From: a bacterium
GTDB taxonomy: Bacteria; UBP14; UBA6098; 4484-93
NCBI GenBank assembly: GCA_021158465.1
Contig: JAGGUN010000045.1
Coordinates: forward strand, 1 to 64,000
Reading direction: 5' to 3'
Length of the DNA: 64,000 nucleotides
Shown: positions 10,147-56,500 of the stretch, one piece after another
How the letters are laid out: the number at the start of each line of letters is the position of its first letter
Position numbering within the stretch: the first letter of the stretch is position 1
Position numbers and translations under genes: made by a program
The notes under the pieces: model-generated
Databases searched by the model: none
What the model saw: only the letters and a program-made list of their open reading frames with translations
What the model was told of the DNA's origin: nothing

Positions 10147-11535
10147 TTATTTCTTCTCTCTTCTGACTTCACCCATTCTGTTTACATAGATGCCTTCTTT
10201 CTCGTATCTGGCAAGCTTATTTCGGAGGGTTCTGACGCTTATCCCGAGAAGGCGGGCTGCCTCTGCTCTTCTACCACGGGTCTTCTCAAGGGCTTTTAGT
10301 ATCAACCTTTTTTCCATCTCCCTGAGGGGCAAAATTTCACCGATGTCAACAGCCCCCTTGGTTTCTGCCATTCGTGGGATTACTATATCCTTCCGCGTTA
10401 TCTTATCTCCAACCGACACAATAACCGCTCTCTCCACAGCGTTTTCCAGTTCCCTGACATTGCCAGGCCAATCATACTTCATCATCCAGGACAGTGCATC
10501 CGAACTGATCTCTTTCACCGGCTTGGAGTTCTTGGAAGAATATAGCGCTACGAAGTAATCTGCCAAAAGAGGGATATCTTCCTTCCTCGCCCTAAGGGGA
10601 GGGATATGAATAGGGAAAACATTCAACCTAAAATACAGGTCTTCACGAAACCTACCCTCAACAACAAGCTTCCTGAGGTTCTGGTTCGTAGTGGCTATTA
10701 TCCTAACATCGCTTTTAATGGTTTTGTTGCTACCGAGCCTCTCGAATTTCTTCTCTTCGATCGCCCTGAGAAGCTTCGCCTGGAATGCAATGCTTGTCTC
10801 GCTTATCTCGTCCAAAAACAGTGTCCCACCATCGGCAAGCTCAAACCTACCTATCTTCCTTGAAACAGCCCCTGTGAAGGCTCCCTTCTCATAGCCGAAG
10901 AACTCAGCCTCAATGAGCGTATCCGGTATAGCAGCACAGTTTACCTCGACAAAACGGGCACCGCTTCTGAGGCTTTTGTTATGTATCTCCTGAGCAACAA
11001 GCTCTTTACCTGTTCCGCTCTCACCATAAATCATCACATTCACATCCGTTGGGGCAACAATATTTATCGTCTCGATAAGATTTCGCATGACCTTCGACCT
11101 GCCAAGAAGCCTCTTCGGCAACAGGGAAGGTGTGTCTTTCTTCAAGATCTCGTTTTCCTGTATCAACCTCGCTCGCTCAATGGCGGATTCAATACGGATT
11201 CTCGCTTCATCAGGAACAATAGGTTTGGCAATGAACTCGTAGGCTTTTTCCCGAACTGCCTGAACCACCATATTCAGTTCCGTGCGCGTTATAAGAACGA
11301 CCACCGTCGTCAAGGGGGAAAGGCGGTTAAGTTCATTCAGGACGTCTAAGCAGGTGCCATCAGGTAACTTACTCCCGACGAAAACGAGTTCATAGTGCCT
11401 ACGACGAATCATCCTCTTTACATCTGCAAGACAAAATCGCTTGTCCGCCTTGCAACCTTTTTCGAGGAGTATCTCCTCAACTGCAGAACAAACCTCGGGA
11501 TCATCATCCACCACAAGTGCCCTCAAATTTATCAT
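10147..11535 (-). CDS. NtrC-family sigma54-dependent activator with a receiver lacking the phospho-Asp
   Basis: 462 residues: receiver (1-120), AAA+ (about 145-380) and Fis-type HTH (about 410-460). The AAA+ domain is intact, with Walker A GESGTGKE (171-178), the sigma54-contacting GAFTGA (218-223) and Walker B TLFLDE. In the receiver the acidic pocket D10-D12 and K104 remain, but the phospho-acceptor position reads VFVGSKLP with Gly54 in place of Asp. It should activate sigma54 promoters, but not through ordinary phosphorylation. It has its own promoter. The start is either ATG 11535 or an in-frame TTG three codons later, better spaced from AAAGGAG. Last gene of the signalling cluster. Confidence 0.93.
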   Translation of the reverse strand: MINLRALVVDDDPEVCSAVEEILLEKGCKADKRFCLADVKRMIRRRHYELVFVGSKLPDGTCLDVLNELNRLSPLTTVVVLITRTELNMVVQAVREKAYEFIAKPIVPDEARIRIESAIERARLIQENEILKKDTPSLLPKRLLGRSKVMRNLIETINIVAPTDVNVMIYGESGTGKELVAQEIHNKSLRSGARFVEVNCAAIPDTLIEAEFFGYEKGAFTGAVSRKIGRFELADGGTLFLDEISETSIAFQAKLLRAIEEKKFERLGSNKTIKSDVRIIATTNQNLRKLVVEGRFREDLYFRLNVFPIHIPPLRARKEDIPLLADYFVALYSSKNSKPVKEISSDALSWMMKYDWPGNVRELENAVERAVIVSVGDKITRKDIVIPRMAETKGAVDIGEILPLREMEKRLILKALEKTRGRRAEAARLLGISVRTLRNKLARYEKEGIYVNRMGEVRREKK

Positions 11536-11597
11536 CTCCTTTCCCTAAACGGCATAGAATGTTAGAAAAGACAGATTAAAAATTACCTCTGTTTAAT

Positions 11598-11625
11598 ATT
11601 TTACTCAATCTGCGACAGAAATCAA
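11598..11625 (-). promoter_or_regulatory. Promoter in front of the NtrC-type regulator
   Basis: On the minus strand: TTGATT (11625-11620), 16-bp spacer, TAAAAT (11603-11598). It lies in the 139-nt gap between the lone receiver and the activator, so the activator can be expressed separately from the rest of the cluster. Confidence 0.65.
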
Positions 11626-11674
11626 GTATTTTTCGGTTAAAAAATTTTTTATGGATAAAACAGGAAAGAATTTC

Positions 11675-12034
11675 CTATTTTGTCAGGCTTTCTATCGCCG
11701 TGAGCAGTTCTGAGACGGTTGTTGGCTTGAAGATATACGGGATACCCAGCCTCTCAACGGTCCTATAAAGCTTCTTCGTCCTATACCCGGTCAGTATAAG
11801 GACGGGCAGCTCCGGGCGAAGCTTGGCGAGTTTCTCACACAGCACCAGCCCGCTCTCCTCCGGCATCCTGACATCGGTTATCACAAGGGCATACTTTCTT
11901 CTCTTTTTGAACAGCTTCTCCTCCGCCTCCTTGGCATTGCGGCAGTGGTCTATTCTGTATCCCAAAAACCGTGCTATCTCTTCCACAACCACTTGCCAGT
12001 GCGGGTCATCCTCGGCAAACAGGATTTCTCTCAT
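11675..12034 (-). CDS. Single-domain response regulator (receiver)
   Basis: 119 residues consisting of one CheY-like receiver: acidic pocket EDD (8-10), phospho-acceptor D54 in VITDVRMP, Thr in ILTGY and Lys in IFKP. All catalytic residues are present, so it should be phosphorylated. It has no output domain, so it probably acts by binding a partner or as a phosphate shuttle. It overlaps the CheB-like gene by 29 nt and is the sixth-to-last step of a chain of overlapping minus-strand genes. Confidence 0.92.
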   Translation of the reverse strand: MREILFAEDDPHWQVVVEEIARFLGYRIDHCRNAKEAEEKLFKKRRKYALVITDVRMPEESGLVLCEKLAKLRPELPVLILTGYRTKKLYRTVERLGIPYIFKPTTVSELLTAIESLTK

Positions 12035-13031
12035 CTTTTCTTTTCTCCATGAGCTTTTTTATAGCCAGAGCAATTCTTCCTTCAGGTGCAACAATACTGC
12101 AAACCCCTTTACTCAAGAGTTTCTTCGGTGCCTCGGGGAAAACAGCATACTCCGGATCCTCACAAACCAGAGCGCTTCCTCCCTTCCGAATCCTCGATAT
12201 GACATCATCACCATCGAGGAGTTCCCCGGAAAGAACAAGCAAGAGAATCTTCCCCGAAAAAGCTCTCTCCACCGAAATCAGGCTCTCGCTGATTGATCTA
12301 CCTTCCAAGGGGGTGAGTTTGACCTTTCTTTTGTCACTGGTGAATATAATGGTTTTGCCTTTTGGGACGATGAGTATTTCCCCTGGAACAAGAGCCTTCT
12401 CAGTCTGAACAACGCAGGCAGGATAACCTCTCGATATCCTCCTCACAAGCGGAGAGAAGATATACTTCTCCAGCTGTGAGAGTACCACAACGGGTAAAGG
12501 GAATCCACCAGGGACAGATGAGAGCAGGCTTACAAGCGAGCGAACACCGCCAACAGAAAGGATGATAACGATTATCTGGAACCCTCCTCCCTCCTCTGGA
12601 AGTTTAACGGAGCCTGTCCGAGTAGGAAATGGAAACACTCTCCCACAATGAGCAGCAACAGACTCTATCCTTCTTGCAAGTTCTTCTACCGCTCTTACGG
12701 TCCGATCTTCGCCATTTTCCATCCTGTATGGTATAGCGTCGACGGCACCCGACTCCAGGAGAGACACCATAGGGTCAATTGCCTCCTTTTCCATAGGGAA
12801 CAGAACTACCACTGGTATCCCGAGGAGGTTGATTACCTCCCGGGTCAGTTCTGTTTTTTTTCCAAACGGATACGAAAGTATACTCACAACCATATCGGGT
12901 TTGGTACGCCAGAGTGCAAGCAGCTCGTCAAAGCCAAAAACGGTTATCTCCATCTGTGGTAGAAACCGCTTCACAAGAATAGAAACCGCTCTGGAAGTCG
13001 CCGTGTCTCTGTTAAGAAGCCCTATTCTCAT
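12006..13031 (-). CDS. Degenerate CheB-like protein (pseudo-methylesterase)
   Basis: 341 residues with the layout of CheB: a receiver-like half (1-130) and a methylesterase-like half (about 150-325). In the second half ILSVGG aligns with GASTGG, keeping the nucleophile Ser, and LSGELLDGDD aligns with LTGMGNDGAA, keeping the catalytic Asp. The stretch VVVLSQLEKYIF aligns with the QHMPPGF region, where the catalytic His is lost. The receiver half has no Asp at the phosphorylation site (VVSILSYP). I infer a non-catalytic binding protein; the alignment is by eye. No CheR or chemoreceptor gene is in the window. It overlaps both neighbours. Confidence 0.7.
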   Translation of the reverse strand: MRIGLLNRDTATSRAVSILVKRFLPQMEITVFGFDELLALWRTKPDMVVSILSYPFGKKTELTREVINLLGIPVVVLFPMEKEAIDPMVSLLESGAVDAIPYRMENGEDRTVRAVEELARRIESVAAHCGRVFPFPTRTGSVKLPEEGGGFQIIVIILSVGGVRSLVSLLSSVPGGFPLPVVVLSQLEKYIFSPLVRRISRGYPACVVQTEKALVPGEILIVPKGKTIIFTSDKRKVKLTPLEGRSISESLISVERAFSGKILLLVLSGELLDGDDVISRIRKGGSALVCEDPEYAVFPEAPKKLLSKGVCSIVAPEGRIALAIKKLMEKRKDERNPVCRG

Positions 13032-14652
13032 CCCTACTCCAGAGGTGGTTTATTGTTCCCAAAAGCTGGTTTATCTTGAACGGCTTGGATACTATAGAGT
13101 CCACATACCTGAACTTACCTGGCTCCAGTCTGGTATTCCAACCAGTTACAAGCACGACCTTGGTCTCCGGGGATATCTCCTTTGCGCAGCGAGAAAGCTC
13201 GCTCCCGTTCATCTTCGGCATCCCGAGGTCAGTGAACACAACATCGAACCTTTCCTTCTTCAGAATATCGAGAGCACGCAGTCCGTTCTCCGCACAGCTC
13301 ACATAAAAATGCTCGTGCTCGAATATCTCCTTGAGTAAGTTTCTTATCTCCTCATCGTCTTCAACTACCAGAACCCGCAGTCCACTCTGCCGAGGAAGCT
13401 TGAACGACTCAAGATGTTTCGCCTTGCTAGCCGATCTGCTCGCAGGAAACCGAAGCGTGAATGTTGTCCCCTTCCCAACCTCGCTCTTGAGAGATATTGT
13501 CCCTCTATGTTTCTTCACAAGCTCTCGACAGATGGAAAGCCCAAGTCCCGAGCCTCTTTTACCCTTGGTTGTGAAAAACGGTGCAAATATCTTATCGTGG
13601 TACCTCTTCGGGATCCCGCTCCCTGTATCTTCCACCTGGATTATCACATCGTTATCCCTGGTGAATGTTCTGAGCAAGATACTACCTGATTCCTCTATAG
13701 AGTCCACTGCATTCACAAGGAGGTTAATTATTATCTCCCGGAGGGCAGCCCCATTTCCGAAGATGGTTGAACGGCTTCGAAGGTCAGCGGTCACCTCGAT
13801 ATTTTTCCCTGACCTATCCCGTGCCTCTCTCAGTTTACCCTCAAACAGCTTCAGGGTGTCCAGCACCGCCTGGTCAACGCTGATATCCTCGAAATTCTCC
13901 TCATACTCTTTGGAGAACATAAGAACCCTGCGAATGATTTCTGCACCATCCGTTGCCGTTCGCTCGATTATCTTCAAGCCGTCCAGAAGGGTCGGGTCAA
14001 AAGCCCCCTCCTTACTTCCGATATATCTTTCAAGAAGCTGAACGCGCCCCAGTATAGCACCGAGTATATTGTTCATATCGTGAGCCACTCCACTCGCCAC
14101 CTCTCCAACATTCTTCATCGCCTCGAGCCGCTCGAGCTCGTGCTGCATCTTGCTCACAGTCTGGTTTAGAGCTGCCACCTGCTTGAAAAGCTTGAAATTC
14201 ACCACCATTATCGAAATCATAGGCAGGGAGAACCGAAACACATTCCTCACCAAGCTATCTATTCTTTCTCCTCCCTTCGCAACACCAACAGCATAACCGA
14301 TGCGCATTCTGTGGAAGCGAAGCTCCTCAATTATGTATTCCCCCTGGACCTTCTCCTTGATAACCTGCTCAAGCTCTTTTTTACTCGGGAGTTTTCCCTT
14401 GGACTTAAGAGAGGAGACAAGCTTCTCTGCCATAGATTGGTTCGTGGAGGAAATAAGCATCTCTTCAGTGTAACTATCTGCAGTTACTATAAATAAGTCA
14501 ATTGGCTTAATACATTCTGATATACTATCGAGTATATCATTCCAATTTTCAGGCAGTTGCGTGTTAAAAACAATAGCGGCCCTGTAAAATATTTTGGAGA
14601 CAATCTCCCGTTCCTCGGGGGTCAGGTTATTTATTATTAACCTCCGGTTCAT
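13012..14652 (-). CDS. Hybrid sensor histidine kinase (HisKA-HATPase-receiver)
   Basis: 546 residues. Residues 1-165 form an unrecognised sensor-like region with one hydrophobic stretch (about 140-152), then a coiled segment and the H-box SGVAHDMNNILGAI with H191. The ATPase has an N-box (INLLVNAVDS), G1 (VEDTGSGIP) and G2 (GLGLSICREL). A complete C-terminal receiver follows, with D in VFTDLGMP and K in VSKPF. Catalytically intact, so it is the likely phosphate source for the cluster. The ATG at 14652 is preceded by AAGGAGG; a GTG one codon earlier is too close. It overlaps the small basic gene upstream by 24 nt. Confidence 0.92.
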   Translation of the reverse strand: MNRRLIINNLTPEEREIVSKIFYRAAIVFNTQLPENWNDILDSISECIKPIDLFIVTADSYTEEMLISSTNQSMAEKLVSSLKSKGKLPSKKELEQVIKEKVQGEYIIEELRFHRMRIGYAVGVAKGGERIDSLVRNVFRFSLPMISIMVVNFKLFKQVAALNQTVSKMQHELERLEAMKNVGEVASGVAHDMNNILGAILGRVQLLERYIGSKEGAFDPTLLDGLKIIERTATDGAEIIRRVLMFSKEYEENFEDISVDQAVLDTLKLFEGKLREARDRSGKNIEVTADLRSRSTIFGNGAALREIIINLLVNAVDSIEESGSILLRTFTRDNDVIIQVEDTGSGIPKRYHDKIFAPFFTTKGKRGSGLGLSICRELVKKHRGTISLKSEVGKGTTFTLRFPASRSASKAKHLESFKLPRQSGLRVLVVEDDEEIRNLLKEIFEHEHFYVSCAENGLRALDILKKERFDVVFTDLGMPKMNGSELSRCAKEISPETKVVLVTGWNTRLEPGKFRYVDSIVSKPFKINQLLGTINHLWSRDENRAS

Positions 14653-14832
14653 CACACCTCCTTATCAGGCTCTTCTCTCCCTGTGTCGCGAGCTTTTCGG
14701 AATGAATTCATCCTTATGCAAAACCCTCTTTCCGCCAACAATGAGGTCGAATCTCACCCGCTTTCCTTCTATTTTCCTTATAGGAACACCCTTTTTGTGC
14801 TTCACTATCCTGAATCTTTTCCCTTTTTTCAT
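14629..14832 (-). CDS. Small, highly basic protein of unknown function
   Basis: 67 residues, start ATG overlapping the stop of the receiver gene (ATGA) and end overlapping the hybrid kinase start by 24 nt. It is very rich in Lys and Arg (begins MKKGKRFRIVKHKKGVPIRK). No membrane segment, no signal peptide and no motif that I recognise. Its place inside a tight operon, with overlaps at both ends, supports it being translated, but no homology supports it. It could be a small nucleic-acid-binding or adaptor protein; that is a guess. Confidence 0.5.
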
Positions 14833-15191
14833 TTTAGCACCCCGAGCTTGGAGATGGTGTTCGTAAATTCCGAGATATTGAAGGGCTTTGTGAGAAACGC
14901 GTCTGCTCCCATATTGAGTATCATCTTTCTATTGGAGAGAGGAATAAATCCGGTTACAACAACCACAGGGGTTTTATCCCCTTTTTCCCTTATCTTCTTT
15001 AACAACTCTATCCCGTCCATCTTTGGCATCTTGATATCTGTGACGATAAGGTCAAACCTTTTCTGCTGGAGAGCTTCGAGCGCTTCCTCACCGTTGGAGA
15101 CGACCTCGGGCAAAAGTTGAAGATGATCAAACAGTTTGTACAAAAAGTCCTGGAAGAAAGGTTCGTCTTCTACTATGAGTACCTTCCTCAT
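14829..15191 (-). CDS. Single-domain response regulator (receiver)
   Basis: 120 residues, a full CheY-like receiver: EDE at 8-10, phospho-acceptor D52 in IVTDIKMP, Thr in VVVTGF and Lys in LTKPF. No output domain. It follows the ChpT-like gene with one base between them and overlaps the next gene by 4 nt. It is a second potential phosphate-relay partner for the hybrid kinase and the pseudokinase. Confidence 0.92.
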   Translation of the reverse strand: MRKVLIVEDEPFFQDFLYKLFDHLQLLPEVVSNGEEALEALQQKRFDLIVTDIKMPKMDGIELLKKIREKGDKTPVVVVTGFIPLSNRKMILNMGADAFLTKPFNISEFTNTISKLGVLK

Positions 15192-15192
15192 A

Positions 15193-15789
15193 TCAAGCCG
15201 CCTTTTCTTCTCCGTTTGCTTTATTCGGCAAATCTATCCTTATGAGTTCTCCTGATGTTGTTTTCTCTGTTATAAGCCTTCCTCCAACTCGTTCGAGTAG
15301 ACTGAAGCGAGGAACAACACCACGGACAGCTCCTTCTATCCTCATCTCAACCGTTATCCAACCCTTACGAACCGTATTCCTTATGCGAATCTCTTTCCCC
15401 TCCTCGATAATGGAGGTCGCCCAGTAGAACATCCCAAGCAAGACATCCCTTGCTACCCGTGCCACAGAACAGGATGTAATCTCCACGGGGGTGAGGTTCT
15501 TCTTGACAGTTATCCCTTTATGTGCCAGAACAGGATCAAGAAGGAAAACGAGATCTTCTACAAGCCTTGATAGATCAACTGGAGAAGTGAAACTGGCAAA
15601 CGATGAGAATACTGAAAGTGTCCTCTCTATCCGAGAGGTTACCTTGATTATGGAATCCATTGAGCGCTTATAATACTCCTGCCTATCATTTAGCAGGGCA
15701 AGCTCAGCATACCCCTTTATAGCCCCAAGACCGTTGTTGAGCCTGTGGATAGTTTCACCGATTAGCCACCTGCTTATCGATTTATTCAT
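15193..15789 (-). CDS. ChpT/Spo0B-like pseudo-histidine kinase (candidate phosphotransferase)
   Basis: 198 residues. The N-terminal helix pair carries an H-box (GETIHRLNNGLGAIKGYAEL, H15), similar to HisKA domains with an HxxNN pattern. The remaining 130 residues have the size of an ATPase domain, but the Asn box, DxGxG and GxGxG motifs are not recognisable. This combination (dimerisation/His domain plus a dead ATPase fold) is that of Spo0B and ChpT histidine phosphotransferases; the assignment is inference. The ATG at 15789 has GGAG 11 nt upstream. A GTG at 15801 overlaps the CheW-like gene. Confidence 0.7.
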   Translation of the reverse strand: MNKSISRWLIGETIHRLNNGLGAIKGYAELALLNDRQEYYKRSMDSIIKVTSRIERTLSVFSSFASFTSPVDLSRLVEDLVFLLDPVLAHKGITVKKNLTPVEITSCSVARVARDVLLGMFYWATSIIEEGKEIRIRNTVRKGWITVEMRIEGAVRGVVPRFSLLERVGGRLITEKTTSGELIRIDLPNKANGEEKAA

Positions 15790-15793
15790 TTTT

Positions 15794-16249
15794 CTACGCA
15801 CTCCTTTTCTGTTTTATTGGTATTAAGCTATTCAGTCGCGTAAGTATCTCCGGCACATCGAGGATCGGGTAACGAAACCTTCCCCGAATGATATACCCAA
15901 CAACCCACATCGGGTTGATTCCCCTTGTCTCCCATCTCTTATATCTAATCTGTTCCTCATCCAGCTCCACCGGGATAGGCTCCGTATCCGAAGCAAGTCC
16001 AACCCTATCCCTCAAAAGGAGGACAGAAGTTGTATCGAGAAGTTGCTGGCGCGAAAGCTCCAACAGAAGCCCAACATCCAGAACAGGAATCCAGTTATTC
16101 CCTTCCTTTAACCGTCCGAAGAGCGGAACAATCCCGGAAGTGGAGGGTTTGAGCCATTCACATCCAGCAACCCGGAGAACAAAGCCATCGGGTACTGCAC
16201 AGGTGATATCGTTCACTTTCAAAAGCCAAAAACGCCTTTTGGTATCCAT
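15794..16249 (-). CDS. CheW-like coupling/scaffold protein, divergent
   Basis: 151 residues with the pattern of a CheW domain: beta-strand opening FWLLKVNDITCAVP, the loop ending NWIPVLDVGLLLEL, SVLLLRDRVGLASD and the terminal RYPILDVPEIL. CheW normally bridges receptors and the kinase CheA; neither is in the window, so its partner here is unknown. The ATG at 16249 has a strong GGAGGGAGA 5 nt upstream, which decides against in-frame starts further up. It is the first gene of the overlapping minus-strand series to 11675 and sits divergent to the feo operon. Confidence 0.7.
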   Translation of the reverse strand: MDTKRRFWLLKVNDITCAVPDGFVLRVAGCEWLKPSTSGIVPLFGRLKEGNNWIPVLDVGLLLELSRQQLLDTTSVLLLRDRVGLASDTEPIPVELDEEQIRYKRWETRGINPMWVVGYIIRGRFRYPILDVPEILTRLNSLIPIKQKRSA

Positions 16250-16358: not shown

Positions 16359-16387
16359 TTGACAAGCCTGTTTTTAATTTTTATTTT
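16359..16387 (+). promoter_or_regulatory. Promoter of the dtxR-feoAB operon
   Basis: TTGACA at 16359-16364, 17-bp spacer, TATTTT at 16382-16387. The -10 box is overlapped by the DtxR-type palindrome starting at 16384, so binding there would block RNA polymerase. Confidence 0.7.
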
Positions 16388-16419
16388 TAGGTGAACCTAA
16401 AAAAGTTAGGGGAGGCTAA
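16384..16419 (+). promoter_or_regulatory. DtxR/IdeR-type operator, two sites
   Basis: TTTTTAGGT-GA-ACCTAAAAA at 16384-16403 is a perfect palindrome with 9-nt arms. Its core TTAGGTGAACCTAA resembles the TTAGG...CCTAA operators bound by DtxR/IdeR/MntR regulators. A second weaker copy, TTAGGGGAGGCTAA (16406-16419), is centred 19 bp downstream and contains the Shine-Dalgarno GGGGAGG of the regulator gene. One site covers the -10 box and the other the ribosome-binding site, which indicates autoregulation by the adjacent regulator. Confidence 0.75.
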
Positions 16420-22099: not shown

Positions 22100-23908
22100 A
22101 TGCGCTGGATTATTGCTCTTTTCCTATTGTTCAGTGGTTGCCTCCAAGCCTCCGATACTCTTGTTATCCTTCATACAAACGATAGCCACTCGCATCTCGT
22201 TGCATTCGGGCCCGAGGATGAGACAGGCAAGGGTATATACGGCGGCGTGGACAGACTGTCCACACTGATACAGGAGGAAAGGAGAAGCTCTACAAACAGC
22301 CTTATCCTCCACGCCGGCGACTTCTTTTTTGGGGGTATAATGTTTAACCGTTTCTCTGGGGTTGAGGAGCTACGACTCATTCACAGGCTCGGATTCGAGG
22401 CTTTGACCATTGGCAACCACGAGTTCGACAGGGGACCGGAGAGGCTATATAACACTCTCATAGAGGCAGAATCCACAGAGGAATTTCACTATCTATCAGC
22501 GAATATGGATGCATCCTGTTTCCCTGAACTTGCCGAGCTTGTCGAGCCGTTCTATATAAAGGATTTCCCACATTTCCGCGTCGGGATATTCGGGCTAACA
22601 ACCCAGGAGACAAACTACATCTCCTCTCCATCACCTGTTTGTTTCACAGACCCTGTAACATCAGCAAGAGATATGGTCGATACACTCAGATCACTTAGCT
22701 GCAACTTAATAATCCTTCTCTCCCACCTCGGTGTTAACGAGGATAGAATGGTCGCTAAGGAAGTCGCTGGGATACATATAATCGTCGGTGGACACGACCA
22801 CTACCTGTTTACCACACCAATTCCTGTGGAGAACCCGGAAGGCGACACAACTTACATCCTCCAGGTTGGTTGTTATAACCGGTATCTTGGCAAGATGATA
22901 ATGGAGATCGGTGAGGAAAACCGTATATTAGATTATGAGGTAATACCCGTCGACTCATCTGTCTACCCTGACCCTGCTATCTCATCCTATCTCGATTCTA
23001 TAGTCGAGATACTCGAGTCCACCCCGACACTTGCCGGTATGTACACCACTCCACTCATATATGTGCCTGAAGCCATTCCCGAGACCCCTCAAACTGATGG
23101 GTACCTTGACACGCCGCTCGGAAACCTTGTAACCGACGCCCTAAGAGAGACATCAGACGCTGATCTCGCACTGGAAACAAGCGAATCGGTCAGGCAGGAT
23201 ATATACCCTGGAATACTTTTTGGATACGAACTTTTTAGCGCAATCCCCATCGGGCTGGATCCAAGCACATACCTTACATCAAGGATTATCAGGATGTATA
23301 TCTCAGGAAACTCCCTTTATAGACTCCTGAACCTCCCGCTATCTCTTGGAAATCTTTTGATATACATCTCTGGTGGAAGATACACCGTCTACAACTCTGG
23401 CTCATCCTTCTCGGTCAGAAGGGAATCTGTTCTCGTGAACGGGGAGCCGCTCTTAGATGCTGCCACTTACTCTGTGGTGATAAGCCAGTTTTTCTACGAG
23501 ATGCTACCATCGCTATACATCTTCCCTGACAGCGCTGATACCCTGCCAATAACAGAGTTCGAAGCAGTCAGAGACTACATAATCGAGCACCCTGAAAGAG
23601 CACTTTCAGCAACCACCGAGGGCAGAATTATCCTCGAGGAAACGGGTATCGAGGAAAAGCCAGAAGAAAAAAGAAGCTCTTTGTCTATCTATCCAAATCC
23701 GTTCAACTCAACCCTGAGCATAAAAAGTGAAACAAACAGAGATATTCTCATATTCAATATAAAGGGTGAACTCATCCGGAGGTTACCCGCAGAAGACCAC
23801 ACCTGGGACGGGAAAGACAATTGGGGGAATCGGATGCCGTCAGGAGTATACCTTCTCAAGGAAGATATGCCGAACAGCAAACCGCAGAAAGCAGTTCTTA
23901 TAAGGTAA
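22100..23908 (+). CDS. Secreted UshA/5'-nucleotidase-family phosphoesterase with C-terminal sorting domain
   Basis: 602 residues. The signal peptide (RWIIALFLLFSGC) could be lipoprotein-type with Cys at 14, although -3 is Phe. The calcineurin-like metallophosphatase domain has the family metal ligands: HTNDSHSH, HAGDFF, GNHEFDRG, LSHLGVNED and GGHDHY. The 5'-nucleotidase C-terminal domain spans about 335-500. The last 75 residues (SIYPNPFNSTLSI ... SGVYLL) form a FlgD-like/type IX secretion sorting domain, so it should be exported to the surface. Substrate could be nucleotides or UDP-sugars. First of four closely linked genes. Confidence 0.9.
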   Translation: MRWIIALFLLFSGCLQASDTLVILHTNDSHSHLVAFGPEDETGKGIYGGVDRLSTLIQEERRSSTNSLILHAGDFFFGGIMFNRFSGVEELRLIHRLGFEALTIGNHEFDRGPERLYNTLIEAESTEEFHYLSANMDASCFPELAELVEPFYIKDFPHFRVGIFGLTTQETNYISSPSPVCFTDPVTSARDMVDTLRSLSCNLIILLSHLGVNEDRMVAKEVAGIHIIVGGHDHYLFTTPIPVENPEGDTTYILQVGCYNRYLGKMIMEIGEENRILDYEVIPVDSSVYPDPAISSYLDSIVEILESTPTLAGMYTTPLIYVPEAIPETPQTDGYLDTPLGNLVTDALRETSDADLALETSESVRQDIYPGILFGYELFSAIPIGLDPSTYLTSRIIRMYISGNSLYRLLNLPLSLGNLLIYISGGRYTVYNSGSSFSVRRESVLVNGEPLLDAATYSVVISQFFYEMLPSLYIFPDSADTLPITEFEAVRDYIIEHPERALSATTEGRIILEETGIEEKPEEKRSSLSIYPNPFNSTLSIKSETNRDILIFNIKGELIRRLPAEDHTWDGKDNWGNRMPSGVYLLKEDMPNSKPQKAVLIR

Positions 23909-24560: not shown

Positions 24561-25342
24561 AGATAGGTTATCTTCAATTCAACCCTGAGCGTCTCGCAGT
24601 TGATAAGAATATTAAGCGAGTGATACAGTTCCTCGAACCTGTTGAAGCGGAACTCGTTGTTTTACCTGAACTGTTCGCCACAGGGTATCTCTTCGGCTCG
24701 AAGAGAGAACTGCTGTCGGTAGCTGAGAAGTTTCCAGACGGTGAAACGATAAAAGCAGTCTCTGAGGTAGCCAAGAAAAAGGATATGGCTATTGTCGGAG
24801 GGTTCCCGGAAATATCGAATAACAAAATCTTCAACTCACAGTTTCTTGTTTCACCAATGGGAGAGTTCCTCTACAGAAAAACGCATCTTTTCGACGGGGA
24901 GAAATATCTGTTTGCTCCTGGGGACACAGGTTTTGTCTCCGTCGAATTCAAGGGGGTAAAGATAGGTCTTATGGTCTGCTTTGACTGGCTATTCCCTGAG
25001 GCGGCAAGGACACTTGCTCTCAAGGGTGCACAGGTCATCGCTCACAGCGCAAACCTCGTTATGCCATACTGCCAGAAGGCAATGTACGCCAGGGCAGTGG
25101 AGAACAGGGTCTTCACAATAACATCGAACAGGGTAGGGATAGAATCGGTTGGGGGGAGAAAACTTACCTTCACGGGTGGAAGCATCATCTACTCCCCCAC
25201 AGGCAAGATTCTCGCCGAGGGAAGCACTGATTCCGAGGAGATAACGATCGTAGAGATTGACCCGACCGAAGCCCTTGACAAAAACATTACCAAGGACAAC
25301 AATATATTCGACGACAGAAGAACCAAACTATATTTTAGATGA
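24557..25342 (+). CDS. Carbon-nitrogen hydrolase (nitrilase superfamily)
   Basis: 261 residues with the complete Glu-Lys-Cys triad of the nitrilase superfamily: Glu in VLPELFATGY, Lys in YRKTHLFDGE and Cys in GLMVCFDWLFPEAAR. The fold matches omega-amidase/N-carbamoyl-putrescine amidase-like enzymes; the amide substrate is not identifiable. Start and stop both overlap neighbours by ATGA, so it is translationally coupled to the aldolase and to the C25 protein. Cytosolic, with no signal peptide. Confidence 0.9.
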   Translation: MKIGYLQFNPERLAVDKNIKRVIQFLEPVEAELVVLPELFATGYLFGSKRELLSVAEKFPDGETIKAVSEVAKKKDMAIVGGFPEISNNKIFNSQFLVSPMGEFLYRKTHLFDGEKYLFAPGDTGFVSVEFKGVKIGLMVCFDWLFPEAARTLALKGAQVIAHSANLVMPYCQKAMYARAVENRVFTITSNRVGIESVGGRKLTFTGGSIIYSPTGKILAEGSTDSEEITIVEIDPTEALDKNITKDNNIFDDRRTKLYFR

Positions 25343-28300
25343 AAGGGGGAAATGTGAGAGCTTTGTCTGCCTTTTTCCTTCTGTTCTTTCTTGCGGTTCC
25401 AGTTTTTGCCGGAGTGGAGATAGAAAATCAGAACAACTCATTCATCGAAGGCACGGTGAGTTTCCCTGAATTCAAGCAGGTATCCGTTGGGGGATACACA
25501 AAGCTGAGCTTCGATATGGCAGGCTCATATAATGAGGAAGCGAAACCAGACATACCTATCCTATCCACATTTGTCGCCATACCTACTTCTACCGGCGGTG
25601 AGGTTGAGATTCTCGATGCGGATTACGAGGATATCCCAATCAACATAGATACCTGGGCACCTGTTCCTGATGATGCAGGAAATCTGCATCGGGATGAAAA
25701 ATTTTACTCCGAATTTAGCACATATCCCACATCCATTGCAAAGACGGGCAATGTCGGGATACTGAGGGAGTTCAGGGTTCTGCCAGTATCGTTTGTAGGC
25801 GTGCAGCTTGTGAGAGAAAAGCGTATTGCGAGGATGTATAAAAGCATTCATTTCCGCATCAGATTAACAGGTTCTGCATCACCTGTATCGGATTATGTAT
25901 CTGAGTCATACATCCCTCTTTACAGGGCGCTCATTGCAAACTACGATATCGTCTCCTCCACCCGGCTTGTCAGACGAGGTGGTTATCTTATCATATCGAA
26001 GGGGGTATTTATTCCGTATCTCGATGAGCTTATCTTCTGGAAGGAGAGGGAGGGGTTCCCCTGCACACTCTTCGACCTCGACGAAGATGTGGGCGCTGGA
26101 ACAACACCATCGAAAGAAGAAATAAGAGAGTTCATCCGCTCATATTACAATGAAGCTGACATTCCTCCTGAATTTTTGCTTCTGGTGGGGGATGTCCAGA
26201 TGGGTTCATACGGCTCTTTCCCTGACTATACATATCACAGTAGCTACGAGGAGGGTGACTACGCATCCGACCATGGGTATTCTACCATCGTTGGGGATGA
26301 CTATCTACCGGACATTTCTGTTGGCAGACTGACCGTCGACACACCCAGTGAGCTTCGGACGGTGGTGGCAAAGATTGTAGGGTATGAATCGAATCCATAT
26401 ATGGATGATAGATACTGGTTCAGACGGGCGCTCTCTATCGGCGCAAACTGTTGTGGCTCACCCAACCCGACCTCCCCAAGGCTCGTTGCACTCTGGACAA
26501 GAGATCTTCTGCTCGAGAGCGGATTTACCAGGGTAGACACAGTAACCTGCATCGGCACCATCTGCTCGCACGACTACACATACATATCCTCTCTCATCAA
26601 CGAAGGGCTTGGAGTAGTCTCCTACCGTGGCTGGGCAGGCTCGCAGGGATGGTTCTACCCATCCTATCAGATAAGCGACATCCTATCGCTCGCCAATGGC
26701 TGGAAGCTACCTATTATGGCATGCATCGTCTGCGGTAGCGGAGACTTCAACTCATCGACCGACCCCTGCTTCGGAGAAGCCTGGATAAGAGCCGGAACAC
26801 CGAGCAACCCGAAGGGGGGAGTGGCATTCTACGGCAGCTCTGACCACGACACACATACAAAATGGAACAATCCGAACAGCGAGGGGTTCTTCTGGGGGTA
26901 TCTAAAGGAACATTTACAGTATATCGGGCTCTGCGTCGACCGGGCAAAGATGAATATATACCTAAGCTTTCCCAACGCAACGGAACCGGGTGGAGCAGTC
27001 GAGCATTATATGAATGTCTACTCACTTCTGGGCGACCCTGGGCTTTCGGTCTGGTCGAGGACACCCGTCGAGATGACGGCGAACTTCCCGGATACAATCC
27101 CCGCTGGCACAAATAACATATCCGTTCACCTCTCCGCTTACTCCTCTCCTCTTGCAGGCGCTTATGTTACCATTTACAAGCCTGGTATCCTTCTGGAAAC
27201 GAAGAAGTCAGACGGCTCTGGAAATGTTTCCTTCTCAATAACAACCGATGAGCTTTCCCCCGGAGATACAATCTATCTCACAGCCACACGCCGCGATTTC
27301 AAGCCCTTTCTCGGAGAGATAATCCTGGGCGCACCTGTTTCTGTCTCTTTCTCCTCCTGGGAAATAACGCCTCCAGTATTCACACCTGGAGAAACACATA
27401 ATGTTACCCTGCATTTTCACACGGAAGAAACAATCCCTGGAACCTACATCCTTCTACATACAACCGATGACATTATTTCTCTTCCGATTGATTCTGTTTT
27501 CATTGGCGAGGTTTCCGGCAACTTCGATGTAGGGTTCTCGCTCGATATAGCAGGGCGTGCCACACTGTTCGACGAGGCTCTCGTGCAGATCTCCCTCTTC
27601 TCTTCTGCCGAAAGGATCGGAGAATACGCAATAGAAGGTAATATAATCTCTCCATATTTTGTTGTGGACAGCGTGATAGACGAGACCGGGGATGGTGTAT
27701 TTTCCCCTGGTGAGGAGGTGAGCTTTACAGTGAGCCTTAGGAATATCGGATCGGTTGAGGCAACCGCGCCAGTCGCCTATATAAGGACACCCCGGGTCTG
27801 GACAGAGAGGCTCGATTCTGCGGCGCATTATCCGAACATCCCACCAGAGGGATCTGCTACCTCATCTGACCCGTTTACCGTGCAGGTCCATGACTGGACA
27901 ATAAGCGGGATTCAGGAGAGGTTTATACTTGAAGTCCACTCCGGAGGGTTCTTCCAGACCATACCGCTGGAGTTTTACATAGGAGAGGTGTCTCCGTCAA
28001 CATTTGCAGGACCAACAGAATACGGATATTTCATCTACGATGATACAGACACAGGATCTGGTCGAGCACCAGAGTACTTGTGGCTGGAACTTGACCCAGA
28101 GTACGGTGGCTGGGGCGCGACAGAACTCACTCTCGAGGACGACGAAACGGAAGTTGTACCTCTCCCCTTCAGCTTCAAATACTTCGGTCAAACATATGAT
28201 ACAGTCTCCATCTGCAGCAACGGCTGGTTCTCCTTCGGGCGGACAACGAGAGCGGACTTTTACAACCGCAACATCCCGAACCCATCATCTGCAAATGCAC

Positions 28301-28962
28301 AGGTCAGCGTCTTCTGGGATGACCTGAGACCAACAGGCGGAATATTCTACCGCTACGATGCACCTGAGGGACGGTTTATCATCGAATGGAGATGCGAGAA
28401 TGTCCGAGGCAACCTTCCAGAGATATTTGAGGCTGTCCTGTTTGACCCAGACTATGTAACAACACCAACAGGCGATGGCGAGATACTTCTCCTATACCAC
28501 ACCGTCAACGACACAGACTACCAAAACGAATACTCCACCGTCGGGATAGAGTCCCCTGACCAGGAGTCGGGGTTTGAATACCTTTACTGCCGAGGGTATA
28601 ATCCGACATCAGCTCCACTCACCCCCGGAAGGGCAATACTCTTCACGACAAACCCGCCCGAGGCTTACACCTCATCGATTGAAGAAAATTATTCACCCCC
28701 TGAGAACCTCATCCTGTCTGTCTACCCGAACCCGTTCAATAACACGGCAAGGATTAGTTTCTCCACCCCAGAGAAGACAAGCCTGACAATAGCAGCCTAC
28801 AGCATATCAGGGCAGCTGGTGTCGGTTTTGTTCGAGGGCAATGCAAAACCTGGATGGCACTCTATTACCTGGGAGACTGACAGGATACCCAGCGGTGTGT
28901 ATCTTATCCACTTGAAAGCTGGGACAACAACTATCTCAAGAAGAGTTATCCTTGTCAAATAG
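25339..28962 (+). CDS. Secreted peptidase C25 (gingipain)-family protein with sorting domain
   Basis: 1207 residues. Signal peptide RALSAFFLLFFLAVPVFA. A pro-region is followed by the C25 caspase-like domain (about 210-570), with the Cys block LPIMACIVCGSGDFN (C462 or C465), CFGEAW and SLLGDPGLSV as in gingipains. The GHG motif that carries the catalytic His in gingipains reads YRGWAGS here (W432), so classical activity is doubtful. Ig-like domains fill about 575-850, then a NHL/nidogen-like beta domain (NGWFSFGRTTR). The end LSVYPNPFNNTARISF ... is a type IX sorting domain. Start is ATG 25339 (ATGA overlap) or GTG 25354, which has GGGGGA at good spacing. Confidence 0.85.
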   Translation: MKGGNVRALSAFFLLFFLAVPVFAGVEIENQNNSFIEGTVSFPEFKQVSVGGYTKLSFDMAGSYNEEAKPDIPILSTFVAIPTSTGGEVEILDADYEDIPINIDTWAPVPDDAGNLHRDEKFYSEFSTYPTSIAKTGNVGILREFRVLPVSFVGVQLVREKRIARMYKSIHFRIRLTGSASPVSDYVSESYIPLYRALIANYDIVSSTRLVRRGGYLIISKGVFIPYLDELIFWKEREGFPCTLFDLDEDVGAGTTPSKEEIREFIRSYYNEADIPPEFLLLVGDVQMGSYGSFPDYTYHSSYEEGDYASDHGYSTIVGDDYLPDISVGRLTVDTPSELRTVVAKIVGYESNPYMDDRYWFRRALSIGANCCGSPNPTSPRLVALWTRDLLLESGFTRVDTVTCIGTICSHDYTYISSLINEGLGVVSYRGWAGSQGWFYPSYQISDILSLANGWKLPIMACIVCGSGDFNSSTDPCFGEAWIRAGTPSNPKGGVAFYGSSDHDTHTKWNNPNSEGFFWGYLKEHLQYIGLCVDRAKMNIYLSFPNATEPGGAVEHYMNVYSLLGDPGLSVWSRTPVEMTANFPDTIPAGTNNISVHLSAYSSPLAGAYVTIYKPGILLETKKSDGSGNVSFSITTDELSPGDTIYLTATRRDFKPFLGEIILGAPVSVSFSSWEITPPVFTPGETHNVTLHFHTEETIPGTYILLHTTDDIISLPIDSVFIGEVSGNFDVGFSLDIAGRATLFDEALVQISLFSSAERIGEYAIEGNIISPYFVVDSVIDETGDGVFSPGEEVSFTVSLRNIGSVEATAPVAYIRTPRVWTERLDSAAHYPNIPPEGSATSSDPFTVQVHDWTISGIQERFILEVHSGGFFQTIPLEFYIGEVSPSTFAGPTEYGYFIYDDTDTGSGRAPEYLWLELDPEYGGWGATELTLEDDETEVVPLPFSFKYFGQTYDTVSICSNGWFSFGRTTRADFYNRNIPNPSSANAQVSVFWDDLRPTGGIFYRYDAPEGRFIIEWRCENVRGNLPEIFEAVLFDPDYVTTPTGDGEILLLYHTVNDTDYQNEYSTVGIESPDQESGFEYLYCRGYNPTSAPLTPGRAILFTTNPPEAYTSSIEENYSPPENLILSVYPNPFNNTARISFSTPEKTSLTIAAYSISGQLVSVLFEGNAKPGWHSITWETDRIPSGVYLIHLKAGTTTISRRVILVK

Positions 28963-30792: not shown

Positions 30793-33425
<2,633 letters not shown>

Positions 33426-53519: not shown

Positions 53520-56500
53520 TCATCTGACCAGATTCACGGAGCCAGAGCAAATGTTATGTTTGCCCCTCTTAATAATGTAGATGTATATCCCGTTTCTGGC
53601 TACTCTGCCACTTTCTGTCATTCCATCCCAGATAGCACGCTTTACCTCGCCCGCCGGAACCTGTATCCTTCTTATTATATGCCCGGAAAGGTCGTATATC
53701 TCGATCGTCGCATCCCTGCTGAAGAGCTTTGGATATGTGAATCTAACCTCGTCGTTGTAGCCGTCCCCGTTCGGCGTGAACGGATTGGTAGAAATCTCGC
53801 AGGAGAGTTCAGGTTCTATCCAGAAAAACAGATTACTGGATGAGCAGTTCGGCTCGCAGTAGTCAGGGGAATCACATATCCTAATCTCAATTGCCACAGA
53901 ATCGCCATCCCTCGCACGGAACCCACCAGCATAGGGGAATATATCAAACAGTATATCATCCGGGTTAAAGAAAACACCCGGCGATGAGGAGTAAAGCGTA
54001 TCCGTCGTTCCACCGTTAATTATTGTATATATGAGCGAAAAGCTCGCTGTATCGACCCCCGAGAGGTCAGAGAAGGAAGCCGTTATGTGCAGGTTATCTC
54101 TGTCAACGAGTGCCCCATCGGAGGGGTATCGGATCTCAATATCTGGCGGGGTCGTATCGACCACAAAACTCCAAAAGATAGTCTCCGACAGTGGAAAACC
54201 GAGGGTATCCCTCGCCGAGACAAGAGAAACCCTAACCTCTCCTTCATCAAAGAACCCTAAAGGCGGCTGGAATACAACAAGCGTACCCGAAACCGTAAGA
54301 TAAGGGCTGGTTATGTCAAACACCTCTCCATCGACATCAAGCACCACAGATTCCGGGTCAAGACCGTTTTCACTCACAACAGCAAGGGTAATTGGCTGGT
54401 CGGTGCAGGATGAACTGCTACCCGGATACGGCTCAAGTATATAAAAGGTTGGTCTTGGCAGGATGTCTATTGCAAATGTGTCGGACATAAGAAACGAGCG
54501 GTCTGTTTCACGCTCCCCGTCGAAATCGTTATCCCAGGCAAGCAGGCGGAAGATGATGAGAGTATGAGCAGGCTGACCTGCCAAAGGAAGTACGCTTGTG
54601 GCATATATCCTGTCCCCGGACACCGAATCGAGAGCGAGTATCCCCTCATTTGCCGTTATCTCCAGCTCGCCATCCGTGTCCCAGACAATGCGTGGATAAT
54701 GCATATCGGAGATAAAATCAGGGAAATACACCCCTGACTCGTCCTTCAGAATACAGGAGAAATAGAACGCAGAGTCGGAAGGGAAGAATCTGGGAGAATA
54801 ATCCAGCAGCAGGGGCGGAAGCGTGTCATCATCGGCGATTGTAAAGCTCCACGAGATAGGCTCGACTATCCCATTTGCTCCACAGTATTCCGCTCTATCA
54901 GATGCGGAGACAACAGAGACTACCACAGGCGTCAGCTCCGGATACACAACACCGACCGAATCCGGAACAAATACAAATGTATCCCCTGTCTGATACATCG
55001 CAGGGCTCGAGATGTAGTAGTCTGTTCCCATAACCCTGAGAGCAACACTCGTTGTGTCGAGTCCGCTTATTGAATCGAGGGCGGTGAAGACGACATTCGG
55101 TCTCGGCTCCAATAAAAACGCACCATCCAGCGGATAGACAGGAAGAACAACAGGGGGTGAGAGGTCAATCACAAAATAGAAGGAAAAGGTGCTATCCATC
55201 GGGTTCCCGAGTGTGTCCTCGGCATACCTCACCTCGACACAGACCGTCTCACCATCTGCAAACGAGCTATCAGGATTGAAGAATAATGTATCCCCGGATA
55301 ATAGAAAATCATCCTCAGGCACACCATTTACCAGAAATTCGATGGTCTCCTCTCTCACACCGCTTGGGTCGTCGAAGAATATCACAATCTCCTGGCGCTC
55401 GCAGGACGAAAAGGCAGAAAAGTCTGGTCTAATTGCCACAGGAAGAGGACCATACTTATCGACGAAGAGATACCAGCAACTATCGGTAACGTTTCCACCA
55501 CATAGCGTCGCAAGGTCGGTAAGATGAATGCACATTCCAAGAGAATCCTCCGGGAGAGCGAAACCAATAGAGTCGGCAAATACGCAGAGCGTCCCAGCAG
55601 AATAGAAAACAAACTCATCACCAAAACAGAGCGTCGTATCCCCACAGGAAAACCGGATACTGGTGCTATCGACACCTGCAAGGTCATCGGTCAAAACAAG
55701 GGTCATCTGCGGTAAAGACGCTATTACAGAACCGACCGACGGCGAAATATCCTCAATCACAGGTGGGAGTGTGTCCATATAGAACTCAAATCGTATAATA
55801 TCTCCCAGCGGATTGCCGATGCTGTCGTATGCCGATACGACAAATAGCCTGTTCGTGTCGGAAAAATCCTCAGGATAATCAACGGTCAAAACAGTGTCCG
55901 AAAAAGAGAGCTCAGGTGAAGGGAAACAGAATGTATCCTCATTGAATACGACACCAATCGATTCAGGGATAACACCGTTCTCATCGGTTATGAGAAGCTC
56001 GATGGGGATATTTTGGCAGGATATAATCGAACGGTCTGGCGGAGTAATAAGCTCCACCGATGGTCCCTCCTGATTAACCAGGAAGCTCCAGCAGGTATCG
56101 GCAACATTCGGCGGACAGATTCCACCCCTGTCAGGAACCGATACGCAAACAGAAACCGTATCGCCATCGTGGAAGGCAACACCGAACGAATCGGGATAGA
56201 AATAAAGCGTATCACCGATAACAAAGCATCCTGTGAACTCATCACCATCGACAACGAACAGAACGGAATCAACATCTATTCCCGACAGGATATCGGTCGC
56301 TACAACCCCTATCGGCTGATATGTTCTCGAGGAAACCGAGCCGGGAGTTGGAATAAGAGATATTATCTCAGGCGGCGAAAGGTCAAAACGGAGCCACCAG
56401 CCACGAGAAGCTCCCAGGTTACCCACAATATCAGAGAAACCCGAAACAGAGATATAGACAGAATCACCATCAGAGAAAGAGCTTGTGAGCGGGAAGATAA

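Follow-up and report, generated by a model that had tools for sequence, protein, structure and literature searches.

The window analysed here, positions 1 to 64,000 of contig JAGGUN010000045.1 (assembly GCA_021158465.1; lineage UBP14, UBA6098, 4484-93), belongs to the 2.04-Mb genome of an uncultured, deep-branching bacterium (54 contigs, 97.6% complete) and carries on its minus strand, from 16249 to 10147, eight open reading frames (ORFs) for a CheW-like protein, a ChpT-like pseudokinase, a receiver, a basic protein, a hybrid kinase, a CheB homologue, a second receiver and an NtrC-type activator, called g1 to g8 below (Table 1). This is the composition given in an initial annotation made from the sequence alone, and the ORFs confirm it. 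That annotation had also described seven of the genes as overlapping or 1 nt apart; the tight packing holds but the exact spacing does not, since g1 and g2 lie 4 nt apart (or overlap by 8 nt with an alternative GTG start) and g4 and g5 9-12 nt apart. Elsewhere in g1-g7 the spacing is 1 nt (g2-g3) or an overlap of 4 nt (g3/g4), 20 nt (g5/g6) or 29 nt (g6/g7), giving a series of overlaps and gaps of 1-12 nt from which g8 is set off by 139 nt.

Table 1. Features of the operon and its upstream region (coordinates within the window).
Feature	Coordinates	Strand	Length	Description
g1 (P0001), CheW-like protein	15794..16249	-	151 aa	PF01584, phylum CheW HMM, hhalign
g2 (P0002), ChpT-like pseudokinase	15193..15789	-	198 aa	DHp hairpin with His15, shortened CA domain without ATP use (predicted)
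g3 (P0003), single-domain receiver	14829..15191	-	120 aa	PF00072 1.7e-29; acidic pocket/Asp/Thr/Lys complete; dN/dS 0.09
g4 (P0004), very basic protein	14665..14832	-	55 aa	pI 11.9; 80% identical in Zixibacteria 4484_93, same place; dN/dS 0.20
g5 (P0005), hybrid histidine kinase	13012..14652	-	546 aa	N-terminal domain 1-166, HisKA, HATPase, REC
g6 (P0006), CheB homologue	12006..13031	-	341 aa	Degenerate receiver, linker, methylesterase fold without catalytic His
g7 (P0007), single-domain receiver	11675..12034	-	119 aa	PF00072 6.6e-18; residues complete; dN/dS 0.10
g8 (P0008), NtrC-type sigma54 activator	10147..11535	-	462 aa	Pseudo-receiver, AAA+ (GAFTGA), Fis-type HTH
g8 promoter, sigma70-type (predicted)	11598..11625	-		TTGATT-16-TAAAAT; both hexamers identical in Zixibacteria 4484_93, spacer diverged
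DtxR-type palindrome, perfect	16386..16401			TTTAGGTGAACCTAAA; between operon and divergent dtxR-feoAB

The gene-order survey that the annotation had proposed as a check found the operon again in candidate division Zixibacteria bacterium 4484_93 (hereafter Zixibacteria 4484_93), a second species of the same genus, where an 11.6-kb contig holds all eight genes in unchanged order and flanked, as in the window, by a CNNM pair and, at the opposite end, by dtxR-feoA-feoB. Searches with the CheB homologue, the pseudokinase and the small protein located the operon in 2 of the 17 phylum genomes surveyed, these two being the only members of the genus among the 17. Between them the encoded proteins are 73-89% identical, no gene contains a stop, and the ratio of non-synonymous to synonymous substitution (dN/dS) ranges across the eight genes from 0.09 to 0.37, the highest value being that of g2. 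Because order and place are the same in the second species and dN/dS stays within this range, the operon is not decaying; it is under purifying selection, in an arrangement beyond chance. At the third codon position the GC content of most operon genes resembles that of their neighbours and gives no sign that the operon was recently imported. An Rfam search found no RNA element.

Two of the products have relatives in chemotaxis. Judged by profile comparison, g6 is a true CheB homologue and the homology is strong: it matches CheB_methylest (PF01339) at 4.4e-21, with 75.8 bits against a cut-off of 24, and the full-length CheB family NF009206 at 4e-16 over its whole length, though far under that family's own cut-off. 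The profile supports a receiver-linker-methylesterase architecture, and the closest solved structure is T. maritima CheB (3sft, 1.8e-8). The protein is degenerate, as the annotation had it, and the losses affect both of its domains. The methylesterase domain keeps Ser159 and Asp273 of the triad and has no histidine at all, the sole His of the protein being His128 in the linker, while the receiver has neither an Asp at the end of beta3 nor the conserved Lys. The catalytic His is missing in Zixibacteria 4484_93 too; without it g6 could not serve a methylation cycle.

The homology of g1 to CheW is weak but, on the profile evidence, real. Against PF01584 the source protein and its Zixibacteria 4484_93 orthologue reach E=0.012 and 0.004, their 15.7 and 17.2 bits remaining sub-threshold against a cut-off of 23.5, and CheW is the sole Pfam family that either of them matches. 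A phylum-specific CheW hidden Markov model (HMM), built from 13 CheW domains, aligns end to end with both and scores 16.7 and 21.2 bits, compared with 9.2 for the best of 5,000 shuffles, and hhalign yields P=2e-4 and 5e-3. The CheW homology proposed earlier thus survives as a weak end-to-end match above the shuffled null. A PDB sequence search with both orthologues returned no match. The NLRG motif of ordinary CheW is replaced by KEGN/KEEG; the CheW region around this motif contacts receptors or CheA.

A device built from chemotaxis parts, as the annotation had put it, is therefore an apt description of g1 and g6 but not of the other six genes, which are ordinary two-component or phosphorelay parts, the basic g4 aside, which matches no known family. 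The hybrid kinase g5 matches HATPase (3e-28), REC (2e-21) and HisKA (1e-7) and has all its catalytic residues, with H191-D192 and N195 kept and a complete receiver; its hydropathy profile has no peak typical of a membrane helix. The N-terminal domain of g5 looked GAF-like by eye, an assignment that was dropped because neither Pfam nor the PDB supports it. Of the eight products, only g5, g3 and g7 have complete kinase or receiver catalytic residues, in agreement with the earlier reading. For g4, Pfam and NCBIfam offer no credible match, and weak matches elsewhere in the phylum were rejected (the best, at E=0.007, runs across two stops).

The best reading of g2, from its sequence and its predicted structure, is a kinase relic that resembles ChpT and is probably unable to use ATP. 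The protein matches HisKA at E=0.0095 in the source and 0.003 in Zixibacteria 4484_93, and its AlphaFold2 (AF2) model (pLDDT 87) has a dimerisation and histidine-phosphotransfer (DHp) hairpin followed by a reduced catalytic (CA) domain. In a PDB fold search the top TM-scores of this model, 0.58-0.59, fall to ChpT (4fmt/4fpp), several kinases being slightly better by E-value. His15 and Asn19 are kept, the residue following the His is Arg or Lys (H-box HRLNN/HKLNN in the two species), and alignment with five active-type histidine kinases reveals that the N-box, DxGxG and the ATP lid are missing. In HisKA proteins an acidic residue after the His is needed only for kinase activity, and Thr or Asn at +4 only for phosphatase activity (PMC3510030). 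ChpT itself does not autophosphorylate with ATP, which is not bound in its crystals (PMC3433190).

The activator g8 has an intact AAA+ domain (PF00158, 8.9e-71) and helix-turn-helix (HTH_8, 2e-15), preceded by a receiver (PF00072, 1e-13) in which Gly takes the place of the phospho-Asp in both species, so that the annotation was right to call it non-phosphorylatable; elsewhere in the source genome 15 of 15 other receivers keep the Asp. For lack of this residue g8 cannot be the terminal phospho-acceptor, and its switching would therefore proceed by protein contact or by level. The promoter of its own that had been proposed for g8 is borne out by the hexamers, unchanged between the species. Directly past the g7 stop lies a hairpin, GGAAA-TTC-TTTCC followed by TGTTTT (11655-11680), which is nearly unchanged in Zixibacteria 4484_93; between the two genes it may act as a weak terminator or as a processing site. 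The source genome has a sigma54 gene; sites of the -24/-12 promoter type, sought genome-wide, were no more frequent than those of a reversed-pattern control, and no target regulon emerged. Pseudo-receiver regulators are known, FleQ included, and some of them, FleQ among these, dimerise without phosphate, but the mode of their switching is largely unsettled (PMC12632262).

A full Che set elsewhere in the genome, which would have explained the parts as ordinary chemotaxis, was looked for and not found, in keeping with the earlier statement that CheA, CheR and chemoreceptors are absent. Neither genome of the genus encodes a chemoreceptor (MCPsignal; controls positive) or a CheR methyltransferase. 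No CheW domain passes the cut-off in either genome, g1 being the sole match in the source genome (E=0.015), and since CheA carries a CheW domain there is no recognisable CheA. In four other genera of the phylum (G004, G005, G010 and G013) CheD and CheY join the chemoreceptor, CheW and CheR genes in operons whose gene order is unlike the one described here; CheA is on the same contig in three of the four. G010 is the only one of the four with a CheB, in which the catalytic His is kept (L029:9-1037) and the phospho-Asp of the receiver is replaced by Glu; the loss of the receiver site may therefore predate the present operon. We infer that the genus lost chemotaxis and retained CheW and CheB for another use. 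Derivation of the operon as a rearranged copy of a phylum chemotaxis operon was rejected, as phmmer matches at E<=1 comprise only receivers, kinase regions and CheB. By eye, the stretch from the CheW to the MCP gene in the phylum chemotaxis operons (L027, L028 and L029) also encodes a TonB-receptor-like and a periplasmic substrate-binding-like protein, a hint that a binding protein may feed signals to the receptor.

The account that we tentatively prefer is a soluble phosphorelay of the CckA-ChpT type whose non-enzymatic adaptors derive from CheW and CheB and which acts through contact on a sigma54 activator that cannot be phosphorylated. In such a relay g5 would sense a cytoplasmic cue through its N-terminal domain and, to judge from its intact residues, autophosphorylate on His191 and pass the phosphate to its own receiver. 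A ChpT-like dimer of g2, without using ATP, would then take the phosphate onto His15 and hand it to g3 and g7, while g1 and g6, whose docking and catalytic residues are gone but which are under selection, may act as scaffold or binding partners. The output would be g8, whose level, or whose contact with a phosphorylated receiver or adaptor, would switch its action at sigma54 promoters elsewhere. The view of the initial annotation that the device ends at sigma54 transcription goes further than the evidence: what points to g8 as output is its place in the gene neighbourhood. A more specific form of the account, in which a phosphorylated lone receiver switches g8 in trans on a scaffold of dead CheB and CheW and so couples the ChpT-like relay to sigma54 transcription, is unlikely.

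Several observations weigh against the preferred relay. The contacts and phosphotransfer among the operon products are read from sequence, and the operon occurs in two genomes only, too few for a co-evolution signal. The AF2 model of g1 is meaningless (pLDDT 38), and what links this protein to CheW is its sequence. The ChpT/Spo0B-like identity first proposed for g2 keeps the support of the TM-scores and of the missing ATP motifs, but the Pfam ChpT family PF10090 is not among its matches at E<=1, the nearest being HisKA and AtoS-type kinases, and the Asn at +4 is equally compatible with phosphatase and phosphotransferase activity. Finally, g8 may stand apart from the other genes, having a promoter of its own.

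Two of these points open onto serious rivals, which sequence and synteny do not decide. In the first, g2 acts solely as a phosphatase: g3 and g7 receive their phosphate straight from g5 and are drained by g2, the CheW and CheB relics tuning which of g5 and g2 docks on the receivers. The loss of the acid (Arg/Lys16) with retention of Asn19 in both species would fit the HisKA rule (PMC3510030), and the NtrC-type CrdA of Myxococcus xanthus is dephosphorylated by the Che3 system (PMC3868531); a pure phosphatase, however, need not retain His15, and a kinase with its own receiver, such as g5, usually implies a downstream His-phosphotransfer step, which leaves this role for g2 somewhat unlikely. The second places g8 outside the device, as a neighbouring, constitutively active, FleQ-like sigma54 activator, with g1-g7 acting through another target. 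The 139-nt gap, the conserved promoter and a receiver that can take no phosphate from g5 or g2 would all agree with this, as would the phosphate-free dimerisation of FleQ-like regulators (PMC12632262), yet neighbour and orientation are the same in both species and the operon encodes no other output domain, so that independence of g8 has a limited, though real, chance of being correct. Decay of a chemotaxis remnant on its way to loss is very unlikely: the core is gone from the genus and kept in four others, CheB and CheW are degenerate and g2 has the highest dN/dS, but all eight genes are intact in both species under the constraint described above, identical losses are fixed in both, and the gene order is not that of the phylum chemotaxis operons. 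Least credible of all is the reading that an ordinary chemosensory system serves an alternative cellular function here and that its CheA, CheR and MCP escaped an assembly of 54 contigs and 97.6% completeness. Che3-type systems with links to NtrC-type regulators or to hybrid kinases are known (PMC3868531), but all three components are missing from the second genome as well, and a CheB without its His would be useless in methylation.

The gene divergent from the operon encodes a DtxR-family regulator, and the palindrome between them, TTTAGGTGAACCTAAA, is the only site within two mismatches in the 2-Mb genome and has one mismatch in Zixibacteria 4484_93. It overlaps the -10 element of a TTGACA-17-TATTTT promoter (16359-16401) directed towards dtxR-feoA-feoB; with respect to g1 it is located about 137 nt upstream of the start codon. 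Iron control of the operon through this putative DtxR-type site is possible; the site may or may not act there. Elsewhere in the window, an IMP dehydrogenase that has CBS domains carries an in-frame N-terminal fusion to an RNase H-like domain (RVT_3/RNase_H; 31527-33401). Type IX secretion tail domains (Por_Secre_tail or CHU_C) occur in a gingipain-type C25 peptidase (25339-28962), a 5'-nucleotidase (22100-23908) and a 1670-aa surface protein (53520-58532), suggesting type IX secretion in this lineage.

Among described systems, the CckA-ChpT-CtrA/CpdR pathway of Caulobacter shares with the operon a hybrid kinase with its own receiver, a dimeric histidine kinase-like phosphotransferase without ATP use (predicted here) and downstream stand-alone receivers. 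It differs in that the operon kinase is soluble, g2 has no PF10090 match, and in place of a phosphorylatable DNA-binding regulator there are CheW and CheB relics and a sigma54 activator. In M. xanthus Che3/CrdS-CrdA, chemotaxis-derived proteins likewise accompany an NtrC-type activator and a HisKA kinase in the control of transcription; that system, however, has CheA and acts on CrdA by dephosphorylation, whereas the present genus lacks CheA, CheR and MCP and its NtrC protein is non-phosphorylatable. Rhodospirillum centenum Che3 (CheA3-CheS3-CheY3) is similar as a Che-like cluster with a HisKA hybrid kinase, a lone receiver and a role outside motility, but has the full set of CheA, CheW, CheB, CheR and MCP. 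FleQ-type activators resemble g8 in that an AAA+ sigma54 activator is joined to a receiver without a phosphorylation site. FleQ answers to FleN and c-di-GMP, whereas no partner of that kind is seen at the operon, and the g8 receiver scores as PF00072. Within the phylum, the CheB of G010 has the same full-length receiver and methylesterase and also lacks the receiver Asp, but retains the catalytic His in an operon with CheY, CheD, CheW, CheR and MCP.

The open-access literature on orphan CheW or CheB and on CheA-less Che systems yielded no match of this composition, and so does not contradict the initial claim that no such system has been described. Every part has a known relative, and by analogy the logic resembles that of CckA-ChpT relays and of Che3-type regulation of NtrC proteins; former chemotaxis proteins have apparently been re-used for the control of transcription in a way not yet described. 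The operon would thus be a compact case in which chemotaxis adaptors outlive CheA and the receptors and are kept, minus catalysis, in a transcription-linked relay. As candidate partners of one pseudo-receiver NtrC protein are encoded beside g8, the question of how such regulators are switched (PMC12632262) becomes testable with eight small soluble proteins.

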